This document shows positions 39,172 through 59,614 of a stretch of 64,000 nt of DNA, piece after piece. The stretch spans positions 124,001-188,000 of the forward strand of contig NZ_ATZE01000007.1 in the NCBI RefSeq assembly GCF_000428045.1, read 5' to 3'. A program made the position numbers and the translations under genes. The stretch is from Sedimenticola selenatireducens DSM 17993. GTDB lineage: Bacteria; Pseudomonadota; Gammaproteobacteria; Chromatiales; Chromatiaceae. Below the pieces are notes generated by a model. The model was not told where the DNA came from, ran no database searches, and saw nothing but the letters and a program-made list of their open reading frames with translations. Numbering within the stretch: position 1 is the first letter of the stretch; every line of letters begins with the position of its first letter.

Positions 39172-39642
39172 ATGTCCAGTGAAAACACATCAAAAGAAAC
39201 GCCGGCCTTTCAGCACCCTACGGATGAAGATCTGCGTAACAAGCTGACGGAACTGCAGTATCAGGTAACCCAGCAGGACGGGACCGAGCGGCCATTCCAG
39301 AATGAGTTCTGGGATGAGAAGCGGGAAGGACTGTATGTGGATGTGGTCAGTGGTGAGCCGTTGTTCTCTTCCCGGGACAAGTTTGACTCCGGTACCGGCT
39401 GGCCCAGTTTTACCCGGCCAGTGGATCAGGCGCGTATCGTCGAGCGCACCGATAAAAAGCTGTTCACGGAACGCACCGAGGTACGCAGCCGTGAGGGAAA
39501 TTCCCATCTGGGCCATCTGTTTCCCGATGGACCGGCGCCGACCGGACTGCGCTACTGCATCAACTCGGCATCCCTCCGGTTCATTCCGAAAGCGTCGCTT
39601 GAGGCGGAAGGATATGGTGAGTATCTCAAACTGTTCGAGTGA
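39172..39642 (+). CDS. msrB: Peptide-methionine (R)-S-oxide reductase MsrB
   Basis: This 156-residue protein reduces methionine-R-sulfoxide in proteins. Conserved MsrB segments are present in order: [19 protein letters not shown] near residue 62, [15 protein letters not shown] near 103 and the catalytic [14 protein letters not shown] with Cys129. The two CxxC pairs that bind structural zinc in many MsrB proteins are absent, so this is the zinc-free type. The ATG at 39172 follows AGGAGG at 5-base spacing, a very strong site. It is upstream of the metZ locus on the same strand but is separated from it by a promoter and riboswitch. Confidence 0.95.
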
Positions 39643-39662
39643 CCCCGGGTATGCACAATCGC

Positions 39663-39692
39663 TTGACAATACTGCCGTTGCCGACCTAGTCT
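39663..39692 (+). promoter_or_regulatory. Sigma-70 type promoter in front of the SAM-II riboswitch
   Basis: TTGACA at 39663-39668 and TAGTCT at 39687-39692 are separated by 18 bases. A start about 7 bases later would begin the transcript just at the riboswitch aptamer. Confidence 0.6.
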
Positions 39693-39698
39693 TAGCCG

Positions 39699-39752
39699 AA
39701 GCGCCGATTTATCTCAGATTGCGGGCGCTATAGAAATGCGGCTAAAGCGAGG
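39699..39752 (+). promoter_or_regulatory. SAM-II riboswitch upstream of metZ
   Basis: The segment matches the SAM-II consensus in order: P1 left arm AGCGCC, then GATTTA, ATTGC, P1 right arm GGCGCT, and then AAATG followed by GCTAAA, the pseudoknot strand. Spacing between these blocks fits the known aptamer. SAM-II elements lie in front of methionine and SAM synthesis genes; the gene here is metZ. The AAAGC of the pseudoknot strand (39744-39748) can instead pair with GCTTT at 39760-39764, so SAM binding would expose the terminator arm. The expected result is switch-off when SAM is high. Confidence 0.85.
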
Positions 39753-39756
39753 AACA

Positions 39757-39790
39757 CCTGCTTTGGCTGTGCAGCCAGGCGGGTTTTTTT
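39757..39790 (+). terminator. Riboswitch-controlled terminator of metZ
   Basis: A hairpin from CCTGC to GCGGG, with inner stem GGCT / AGCC, at 39757-39783 is followed by seven T. Its left arm overlaps the antiterminator pairing with the riboswitch. The metZ start follows at 39827. Confidence 0.8.
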
Positions 39791-39826
39791 ATGCCCGGGA
39801 TTTTATTCAAGAAAAGGTATTCCCAA

Positions 39827-41011
39827 ATGACAGAAGCGTATGATGACTGGGGCTTGGCAACCCGGGCGATCAGGGCGGGCCACATCCGGACCGCGGAGGG
39901 AGAGCACTCGGAGCCGATATTCACTACTTCCAGTTTTGTCTTTCAGAGTGCCGCCGAGGCGGCTGCCCGTTTCAGTGGCGACGAACCGGGTAATATCTAC
40001 TCGCGCTTCACCAATCCGACCGTGGCCTGCTTCGAGCAGCGTCTGGCAGCCCTGGAGGGGGGCGAGGCCTGCGTAGCCACCGCGTCCGGCATGTCGGCAA
40101 TCCTGGCCACCTGCATGGCGTTGTTGAAGGCGGGTGATCATATAGTCTCATCCCGCAGTATCTTCGGTACTACCAACGTGCTGTTCAACAAGTTTCTGGC
40201 GAAGGTGGGTATCAGCACCAGCTTTGTGCCGCTGAGTGATCTTTCTGCCTGGGAGGCGGCTATCCGCCCCGATACCCGCATACTGTATGCCGAGACTCCG
40301 TCCAATCCGATTACCGAACTGGGTGATATCGCCGCCCTGGCCGATTTGGCACACGCCAGGGGATTGCTGCTCGTGGTGGATAACTGTTTCTGTACCCCGG
40401 CCCTGCAACAGCCGCTGGCACTGGGTGCGGATATCGTCATCCACTCCGCTACCAAGTATCTGGACGGGCAGGGTCGCTGTGTCGGTGGTGCGGTGGTCGG
40501 TGATGCCAAGTTGGTGGGTGAGGAGGTGTTTGGTTTTTTACGCACCGCCGGGCCGACCATGAGTCCATTCAATGCCTGGGTATTTCTGAAAGGACTGGAG
40601 ACTCTGCAACTGCGCATGCGGGCCCATTCGGAAAATGCTCTGCAACTGGCGCGCTGGCTGGAGAGGCAGGATGCGGTTGAGCAGGTCTATTATCCCGGTC
40701 TACAGAGCCATCCACAGTATGCGCTGGCGCAGCGCCAGCAGAAGGCGGCCGGCGGCATGCTCTCCTTTGTGGTGAAGGGGGGGAGGGAGCAGGCGTGGCG
40801 ACTGATTGACGCCACCCGGATGATCTCCATTACCGCCAATCTGGGTGATACCAAGAGCACCATTACCCACCCGGCATCCACCACCCATGGCCGGTTGACG
40901 GATGAGGAGAAGGAGTTGTCTGGTATCGAAGATGGCCTGATCCGCATCGCGGTCGGGCTGGAGGATATTGAAGACATCCAGCACGATCTGGAAGCGGGAC
41001 TGGCTAACTAA
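39827..41011 (+). CDS. metZ: O-succinylhomoserine sulfhydrylase (MetZ)
   Basis: This 394-residue PLP enzyme belongs to the Cys/Met metabolism family (cystathionine gamma-synthase fold). The PLP lysine is K210 in HSATKYLDGQG, and TASGMSAILATC near 85 and YAETPSNP near 154 bind the cofactor. It makes homocysteine from O-succinylhomoserine and sulfide. The overall pattern (THGRLTDEEKELSGI near the end) fits MetZ rather than MetB or MetC. I chose the ATG at 39827, the conserved start; an ATG at 39791 is at the foot of the terminator hairpin and lacks a ribosome site. The stop is only one base from the next gene. Confidence 0.92.
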   Translation: MTEAYDDWGLATRAIRAGHIRTAEGEHSEPIFTTSSFVFQSAAEAAARFSGDEPGNIYSRFTNPTVACFEQRLAALEGGEACVATASGMSAILATCMALLKAGDHIVSSRSIFGTTNVLFNKFLAKVGISTSFVPLSDLSAWEAAIRPDTRILYAETPSNPITELGDIAALADLAHARGLLLVVDNCFCTPALQQPLALGADIVIHSATKYLDGQGRCVGGAVVGDAKLVGEEVFGFLRTAGPTMSPFNAWVFLKGLETLQLRMRAHSENALQLARWLERQDAVEQVYYPGLQSHPQYALAQRQQKAAGGMLSFVVKGGREQAWRLIDATRMISITANLGDTKSTITHPASTTHGRLTDEEKELSGIEDGLIRIAVGLEDIEDIQHDLEAGLAN

Positions 41012-41012
41012 A

Positions 41013-41594
41013 GTGGCTACAGAAAACGGACTGCTCGAGATGTGGAATCGCCGACATGCCGAGGCGGAAACCCTGGGGCGTGTGGCGGCGGTGCTGGAGC
41101 AGAACATTCACTTGGCCGCCCCCGGGTGCCGGGCGCTGGACCTGGCCTGCGGGCGCGGGGCCAACGCGCTCCACATGGCAGCGGCGGGGCTGGCGGTAAC
41201 GGCCTGGGATCTGTCTCCGGTGGCCATCAGTCGATTGGACAGCGCGGCAGTGGAAGAGGGGCTGGTTGTTGAAGCCGCCGTCAGGGATGTGATTGCCTCT
41301 CCACCGGAGCCCCGGACCTTTGATCTTATCCTGGTCAGTTTTTTTCTTGAGCGCAAGCTGGCGCCGGCCATTGCGGCGGCGCTGAAACCGGGTGGTCTGC
41401 TTTATTATCAGACCTACAGCCGGGCGGCTGTGACTGATGAGGGACCCTCGTCGGAACAGTTCCGTCTGGATGACAATGAGCTGCTGGAACTGTTTCCCAC
41501 GCTCAAAATCCGGGTCTATCGGGAAGAGCGGTGCTTGGGGGATACCCATCGCGGTTGGCGGGATATGGCCATGCTGGTGGCGGAGAAGACCTGA
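41013..41594 (+). CDS. Class I SAM-dependent methyltransferase, co-transcribed with metZ
   Basis: This 193-residue protein, starting probably with GTG at 41013, has SAM motif I ALDLACGRGANALHMAA near residue 33, an acidic residue in VTAWDLSPVAI and a LKPGGLLYYQTY motif. The N-terminal LLEMWNRRHAEAETLG is like small TehB-type methyltransferases. The substrate is unknown. Its start lies two bases after the metZ stop, so it falls under the same SAM-II riboswitch; a SAM-using gene in that operon is interesting. ATG at 41040 is an alternative start. A weak CCGGC / GCCGG hairpin follows at 41630-41642. Confidence 0.82.
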   Translation: MATENGLLEMWNRRHAEAETLGRVAAVLEQNIHLAAPGCRALDLACGRGANALHMAAAGLAVTAWDLSPVAISRLDSAAVEEGLVVEAAVRDVIASPPEPRTFDLILVSFFLERKLAPAIAAALKPGGLLYYQTYSRAAVTDEGPSSEQFRLDDNELLELFPTLKIRVYREERCLGDTHRGWRDMAMLVAEKT

Positions 41595-59119: not shown

Positions 59120-59229
59120 CCCCGCAATCAGAAATTCACCCATACACCTCATCCCGACAGGGCCAGTTTGTGCCACGGGTCCAGCCGCGGGGGGTAAATT
59201 CCCTTGTGGATTTTTCGACTTGGCTTAAA

Positions 59230-59412
59230 ATAGCCACCTCTGAAGGGTGCCCGTCATGGGTTAAAAGGGAACAAGGTGAGTCTGATCCAGACAAATCCTT
59301 GACTGTCCTCGCAACTGTAAGCAAGTAGTCCGGTCTCATGAAGCCACTGGTCCAACGATTGGGAAGGCGAAACCGGGTGTCGATCTGCAAGTCAGGAAAC
59401 CTGCCTTTCATG
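59230..59412 (+). promoter_or_regulatory. Cobalamin (adenosylcobalamin) riboswitch
   Basis: The conserved core is readable in order: GGGTGCCCGTCATGGGTTAA near 59245-59263, AAGGGAA, GCCACTGG at 59343-59350, GGGAAGGCG near 59361-59369 and the B12 box GTCAGGAAACCTGCC at 59391-59405. This matches the class I cobalamin aptamer in order and spacing. A possible promoter (TTGTGG, 16 bases, TAAAAT, 59204-59231) precedes it. The controlled genes are btuB and probably btuFCD; high cobalamin would shut them off. Between 59413 and 59614 a CTCCCC / GGGGAG hairpin (59583-59597) lies just upstream of the ribosome site GGAGAG and could mask it. Confidence 0.95.
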
Positions 59413-59614
59413 CGTCGCATTTCTACCGAACGGGGTATTCAGTAGAGCGGTCTTCCGTTAGCTGACGCATTCAGGCAGGTCGGAAAACCTGTACTTGTAT
59501 GCAGTCCCGCTGTGGCCCGTTCCGGTTTGGCCTGTCAGCATCAGCAAGTCTCTCTTTCCGTCCTGCATTTGTTCCAAATGCACTCCCCCCGGGGAGTAAC
59601 GGAGAGACCCAGCA

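Follow-up and report, generated by a model that had tools for sequence, protein, structure and literature searches.

In the pocket of the SAM-II riboswitch (RF00521; also called SAM_alpha or metA motif), the nucleotides U10-U12, U20-C23 and G42-A47 were reported to be completely conserved (PMC3764141). A 2007 study counted the elements in gamma- as well as betaproteobacteria (PMC2258182), and SAM-II in betaproteobacteria was mentioned again in 2009 (PMC2704228); their presence in betaproteobacteria is therefore already known. In an analysis of methionine regulons covering about 200 proteobacteria, SAM_alpha was listed, in the accessible part of the text, only for Rhizobiales and Rhodobacterales (PMC4239095). 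A terminator-type SAM-II was described before metZ of Sinorhizobium in 2022 (PMC9373788). The SAM-V riboswitch has the same fold as SAM-II and binds in the same manner, and the cores of the two are closely similar (PMC6061858).

Two further RNAs are found near methionine genes. The metXZ element (Leyn 2014, PMC4239095) is betaproteobacterial; its description comprises a terminator and a pseudoknot formed by regions 1-4 and 2-6. In 30 of 35 genomes it was placed before metXW, and a place before metZ was given for three Methylophilales, Nitrosospira multiformis and Thiobacillus denitrificans. The RNA Bp2_287 (RF02424) was found before methionine genes, with metX and metZ named in the figure legend, and a cis-acting role in methionine metabolism was suggested for it; the relevant section does not name SAM-II (PMC3521395). 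A review of 2024 still tabulated Bp2_287 as an sRNA (PMC10987360). Our literature search, mostly of papers outside subscription, found no publication joining metXZ or Bp2_287 to SAM-II.

Aptamer and promoter of the metZ leader

In our study, a complete SAM-II aptamer was read directly from the sequence at 39700-39752 of the window (the whole 64-kb stretch of DNA that was analysed), followed downstream by a terminator and the methionine gene metZ. The leader features, metZ and the gene after it are on the + strand. The P1 stem contained AGCGCC (39700-39705, aligned to RF00521 and to our model R1) and GGCGCT (39724-39729), which form six pairs around the L1 loop GATTTA (39706-39711); the 3' strand and the loop were placed by the RF00521 alignment. 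The nucleotides U39708-39710 would correspond to U10-U12 of the SAM pocket, the numbering being transferred by motif order. The ATTGC block was found at 39718-39722. Its TTGC (39719-39722), taken as U20 U21 G22 C23 in the RF00521 alignment, is the 5' strand of P2b and can pair with 39741-39745 in the P2 pseudoknot. The 3' strand of P2b, GC(U)AA with the next A (GCTAAA, 39741-39746), was taken as G42-A47 from the same alignment and the letters of PMC3764141. Beyond P2b, a P2a helix can form between CTC (39713-39715) and GAG (39749-39751). The AAATG block (39734-39738) contained L3, AAAT (39734-39737), which was invariant, as was P2b, in alignment A1 of 14 metZ leaders. All 13 pocket nucleotides listed in PMC3764141 were present at the metZ site, as numbered by motif order and without the crystal sequence. 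Each of the six blocks named in the original prediction, from AGCGCC to GCTAAA, was in its place.

A permissive Rfam scan of 39600-39900 (301 bases) gave RF00521 as the best match, at 39691-39762 and over its full length, with 21.7 bits and E 0.0067; the second-best match had E 0.92. The gathering score of RF00521 is 36 bits, and the metZ element is missed by annotation because its score lies below this cut-off. At curated thresholds, the Rfam scan of the whole 64-kb window reported no SAM-II; it gave one cobalamin riboswitch (59228-59422, 119.3 bits) and four tRNAs. With RF00521, the genome-wide search gave no match in the own genome, either at E 0.001 or at E 0.01. The original prediction had looked to RF00521 for its confirmation, which came as a full-length match at the site with 21.7 bits, short of Rfam's 36. 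The 36-bit threshold is an annotation score and no feature of the RNA, and the element is filed here under the class SAM-II and not under RF00521 as curated. The model R1, an aptamer model built from the 14 leaders of alignment A1, gave 85.1 bits at the metZ site, a score that is partly circular, the window's own copy (L001) being one of the 14; R1 found no further match better than E 4 in the 64-kb window.

A -35 box, TTGACA, was present at 39663-39668, starting 37 nt before P1, and a weak -10 box, TAGTCT, was found 18 nt after it at 39687-39692, matching the -10 consensus at three of six positions. The promoter scan listed no site at the metZ leader; of the promoter boxes predicted originally, the -35 box is perfect and the -10 box is weak. 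In the -10 region, CCTAGTCTT was conserved in all seven of the other same-genus leaders lying inside a contig. Transcription would start at about 39699-39700, and this promoter agrees with the SAM-II promoter described a few nucleotides ahead of P1 (PMC1273637). The wider set of elements used here comprised 154, that is, 81 matches in the first 80 of 118 listed stretches of a pattern scan and 73 R1 hits; 150 remained after four unparsed elements were dropped. The complete TTGACA began 29-50 nt before P1 in 79 of the 150, and five of its six letters were found in 39 more; in a control window 100 nt further upstream the respective counts were 2 and 10 of 148. The distance from TTGACA to P1 showed a peak at 36-37 nt.

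The gene msrB (39172-39642) lies upstream of the leader. The gene metZ (39827-41011) encodes O-succinylhomoserine sulfhydrylase (NF006003, 702.1 bits, cut-off 522; TIGR01325, 569.6 bits, cut-off 510), and its ATG start codon at 39827 is 76 nt beyond P2. It is followed by a gene for a TehB-like SAM-dependent methyltransferase (41013-41594, start provisional; PF03848 and PF13649 above cut-offs), likely the next gene of a metZ operon. The methyltransferase gene adjoins metZ and would share the same SAM switch.

Mutually exclusive pairings and the proposed switch

The aptamer was followed by an intrinsic terminator, made up of a stem-loop at 39757-39783 and a U-tract of seven T at 39784-39790, both read directly from the sequence as the original prediction had it. 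The terminator listing gave a stem at 39762-39779 inside this hairpin, and the hairpin of 39757-39782 had -11.7 kcal/mol. Folding also gave an antiterminator hairpin (39741-39767), in which GCTAAAGC (39741-39748) pairs with GCTTTGGC (39760-39767), with one G-U, and AGG (39750-39752) pairs with CCT (39757-39759). This hairpin has one bulge, the loop AACA and -13.0 kcal/mol. The pairings AAAGC/GCTTT and AGG/CCT predicted originally were thus found inside an antiterminator of larger extent. Because both hairpins use 39757-39767, antiterminator and terminator are mutually exclusive; the P2 pseudoknot and the antiterminator compete for 39741-39751.

The free RNA from 39700 was folded into P1 and the antiterminator (-32.3 kcal/mol), whereas with the P2 strands barred from pairing the terminator replaced the antiterminator (-28.7 kcal/mol). 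Among six RNA lengths from 39700, the antiterminator was absent from those ending at 39752 and 39760, and present in those ending at 39768, 39775, 39782 and 39789. Since these folds were computed without pseudoknots and without SAM, they demonstrate that two states are possible, and not that SAM chooses between them.

In our view the metZ leader is, with high probability, a SAM-II riboswitch that acts by transcription termination. The mechanism of the original prediction, which the modelled folds back in both of its states, appears the most likely one. Transcription would begin about 1 nt before P1. At low SAM, the P2 3' strand (39741-39752) would pair with the left arm of the terminator, and with this antiterminator formed the RNA polymerase would continue into metZ and the methyltransferase gene. 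At high SAM, the ligand would hold the strand 39741-39752 in the P2 pseudoknot, the terminator would form and transcription would stop at about 39790, which would make the leader an OFF switch controlled by the end product.

The measure of the antiterminator in the 150 elements was the longest helix that GCTAAANN can form with the 60 nt after it. An 8-bp helix was found in 41/150 elements as against 21/750 shuffled stretches, and a helix of at least 7 bp in 66/150 as against 13.6%, with shuffles that, here and in the covariation counts below, do not allow for sequence relatedness. GCTAAA was fully paired downstream in 73 elements. The seventh pair in these was G-C in 51, G-T in 11, A-T in two, C-G in one and non-standard in eight; the A-T and C-G pairs are compensatory changes, few in number. 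A T-run of at least five was present in 115/150 elements, and neither the antiterminator nor the T-run was universal. A stretch after the U-tract, for example (G)TGCCCGC, is able to base-pair with the terminator's 3' arm (39784-39798 here, and the equivalent region in relatives); this pairing was found in 47 of the 115 T-run loci, compared with 19.8% of shuffled stretches.

The aptamer itself showed some covariation. The outermost P1 pair, which our search pattern left free, was standard in 55 of 76 distinct named-genome aptamers (22 C-G, 20 A-T, 7 T-G and 4 T-A among the 55), with a shuffled mean of 33.5 and a maximum of 48; this pair covaries in relatives. The position next outside P1 is unpaired, being standard in 11/76. 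The second pair of P2a was standard in 113/143 aptamers (shuffled mean 95.6, maximum 108) and also covaries. The first P2a pair was C-G in 128/143 and is uninformative because it is nearly invariant, and beyond the second pair no covariation was found, the counts in the 143 aptamers being within the shuffles. The inner P1 pairs and P2b hardly varied and showed no covariation in the sets examined, partly because the model and the pattern had fixed those letters.

Could the aptamer be real, and the terminator work at a fixed rate, with SAM acting mainly via mRNA stability or translation? We regard this as improbable. In Sinorhizobium, the metA terminator was not predicted to be SAM-responsive and stability effects were described (PMC9373788); in our elements the T-run was missing from 35/150, and the antiterminator was missing from the leaders L016 and L022. 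At the metZ leader, however, the antiterminator and the terminator share 39757-39767 and the P2 3' strand is itself part of the antiterminator, whereas the start codon at 39827 lies outside P2, 76 nt past it. That the leader belongs to a different SAM class (SAM-V in particular) or contains an unrelated motif is considerably less probable still. The fold and the binding manner of SAM-V are common with SAM-II (PMC6061858), but RF01826 (SAM-V) gave no match at the metZ site up to E 10, although the same library gave a SAM-V match in another locus (L233, 39.5 bits, cut-off 41); the match at the site is to RF00521, and P2a can form. SAM-V was therefore rejected. A switch on the outer stem TTAGCCG (39692-39698)/CGGCTAA (39739-39745) is hardly credible and was rejected: it appears in the minimum-energy and centroid structures of 39690-39790, the fold from 39690 favours it together with the terminator, and TTAGCCG is kept in 2/7 other same-genus leaders (L002, L003), but its left strand is altered in the other five, which read TTTGCGGG, TTACGGG, TTACCCG (two) and TTAACCCG, and the stem coincides in part with the -10 region and probably precedes the start of transcription. 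Chance was rejected on the shuffled helices, the specificity of R1 in 64 kb and the gene-context controls given below. The SAM-II riboswitch of the transcription-termination type is the reading that we retain.

Distribution and target genes of the elements

The MetZ search of 38 genomes, the own genome included, gave matches in 37, and the SAM-II motif was present upstream of metZ in 16 of the 30 loci fetched. These 16 were the window, seven of eight same-genus relatives, four further members of the family and four loci from outside it. The motif was conserved in all eight same-genus leaders lying inside a contig (window included); the eighth relative (L006) is cut by a contig end and was counted among the 14 loci without motif. 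In ten of these 14, an open frame of 100 codons or more ended at most 100 nt before metZ, which leaves no space for a leader. Three loci were devoid of the motif despite space or the lack of such a frame (L026, with a gap of 178 nt, L020 and L021). The 8-bp part of the antiterminator (G-U allowed) was intact in 14 of the 16 leaders with the motif; the other two are L016 and L022. Conservation in relatives, one of the grounds on which the original prediction was to stand or fall, was found for the motif in 16/30 loci and for the antiterminator in 14/16 leaders; against it, metZ was kept without the motif in 14/30.

In the class-wide survey, R1 matched 198 of 369 genomes at E 0.01 or better and 166 at 1e-6 or better. 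In the same genomes the independent Rfam model RF00521 matched 135 at E 0.01, and only 30 passed its cut-off. All but two of the 135 genomes (133; exceptions G117 and G181) were also in the R1 list, and the places of the two models coincided in most pairs compared, such as G109:C226 and G162:C11. The best RF00521 match was elsewhere than that of R1 in G071, G209 and G314, which share one family code, and in one place in G382. MetJ was found in only four of the 369 genomes, none of them in the R1 list; four are too few for claiming an exclusion between MetJ and SAM-II.

From the R1 hits, 73 were chosen by hand, roughly one for each family code, with places already covered excluded. The element was upstream of a methionine or SAM gene (within 1.5 kb, same strand) in 65 of the 73. 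The downstream gene was metZ or metY-like in 49, metK in eight, metF in four, metN in two, hom or aspartokinase in one and metX in one, and none was recognised in eight. The metK count includes a second SAM-II copy of the own genome, before metK on contig C37 (L282:1311-1382). About 1.3 kb downstream of this metK-linked copy an SAH riboswitch was found (L282:2641-2722, 58.8 bits), and S. hydrogenitrophicus (L235) contained the same order of SAM-II, metK and SAH riboswitch. The MetK of the own genome, encoded on a contig other than that of the window, shares 96% identity over 390 residues with the MetK of S. hydrogenitrophicus (Chromatiales, Gammaproteobacteria), which places the organism near Sedimenticola.

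The pattern scan of named genomes listed at least 118 stretches (L164-L281) with 119 matches in them. Of the matches listed, 90 were accompanied by a same-strand methionine or SAM gene no more than 1.5 kb away. The genes among the 119 were metX (46), metZ or metY-like (26), metH-like (8), metK (4), metN (3) and hom or aspartokinase (3), followed by sulphonate-type transporters (9) and OsmC-like (2); 18 had none of the references. The labels were assigned by tblastn against ten references, nine of which were taken from the same loci, so that each of those counts itself once; the label metZ includes metY-like enzymes, and the transporter labels are loose. With the same references, a gene was found in 0/357 random window stretches and in 1/48 stretches upstream of elements. 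The genera among the matches listed included Variovorax, Comamonas, Rhodoferax, Thauera, Zoogloea, Nitrosospira, Halomonas and Sedimenticola, and also alphaproteobacteria such as Thalassospira and Microvirga.

SAM-II elements were found before sulphonate-type ABC transporter genes at L186, L188, L190, L194, L200, L203 and L231 (Bosea, Microvirga, Rhodoplanes); a sulphur or methionine compound might be taken up by this route. Within 220 nt after 11 of all 154 elements, a second core resembling SAM-II or SAM-V was present. These loci were L182, L212 and L228 of Halomonas, and L096, L140, L174, L177, L213, L224, L233 and L241. In the double cores of Halomonas, a hairpin resembling a terminator was found in the first, and a separate P1 (CCGCC/GGCGG) in the second. 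Further 3' of them, a TauD-like (L182) and an AzlC-like (L228) protein were encoded.

Comparison with described RNAs

Taken alone, the locus is a modest gain, one predicted SAM-controlled metZ operon of a Sedimenticola-like bacterium. The original prediction held a SAM-II switch in a gammaproteobacterium to be worth noting; for a single locus this is weakened by earlier reports (PMC2258182, PMC9373788), and the frequency of the elements and the missed annotation are more notable. The curated cut-off conceals many SAM-II elements (30 genomes, compared with 135 for RF00521 at E 0.01 and 198 for R1, of 369), and the same predicted switch precedes methionine genes in numerous beta- and gammaproteobacteria, mostly unnoticed by standard annotation. 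We think it likely that there is a large SAM-II group in beta- and gammaproteobacteria, perhaps the main SAM-sensing RNA where MetJ is absent, which spans most of the methionine cycle (metZ, metX, metK, metF, metH, metN, hom), was twice found as an unrecognised orphan (RF02424, metXZ) and has some members that are tandem SAM-II/SAM-II leaders. Control of metK, which encodes SAM synthetase, would amount to direct feedback by the product; we claim no novelty for metK control. The main interest is in the size of this hidden group, the metK target and two orphan RNAs that would be explained if the reading is true; RF02424 and metXZ, which look like the same thing as these SAM-II leaders, would gain a likely, testable ligand.

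The reverse-complemented consensus of RF02424 contained GCGUC, GAUUUG, CAGCUUGC, GGACGC and GCUAA in the SAM-II order (37 positions unprinted), and GCUAA was followed by a GC-rich hairpin and a U-tract. RF02424 differs in its entry, which is that of an sRNA gene ('Burkholderia sRNA') of the opposite strand, and its model has a small additional stem that lies after P1 and before the GCUAA block. On the opposite strand, RF02424 matched nine of the 15 element loci scanned, all below its cut-off of 70 and mostly weakly, the best score being 39.3 bits (L167) and that of the own genome's metK copy 29.9; the metZ site of the window was not matched by it up to E 10. To judge from these motifs, RF02424 appears to have been filed on the wrong strand as an sRNA gene, and its reverse would be a SAM-II leader with a terminator.

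The metXZ element is like our elements in genes, taxa, pseudoknot topology and terminator, and on these grounds, rather than on sequence, we infer that it is the same element as the SAM-II leaders. Its split between genes was mirrored among the matches listed, where those of Variovorax (L208, L243), Comamonas (L217) and Rhodoferax (L219) were before metX, and those of Nitrosospira (L178) and Novimethylophilus of the Methylophilaceae (L167) before metZ.

SAM-V (RF01826) differs in acting at translation, in its shorter P2a and in having an additional P3 (PMC6061858). The metZ SAM-II of Sinorhizobium meliloti (PMC9373788) has the same gene and a predicted terminator-type control; its host is an alphaproteobacterium, and the two were compared by their description. 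Compared with the consensus of RF00521, the metZ element is seven positions shorter (three in the loop before TTGC, four after GCUAAAG), scores below the cut-off and has a gammaproteobacterial host. It shares with SAM-II the P1 stem, P2b with the bulged U, P2a and the pocket nucleotides, together with a promoter close before P1, a terminator after P2 and a methionine gene on the 3' side (PMC1273637, PMC3764141).
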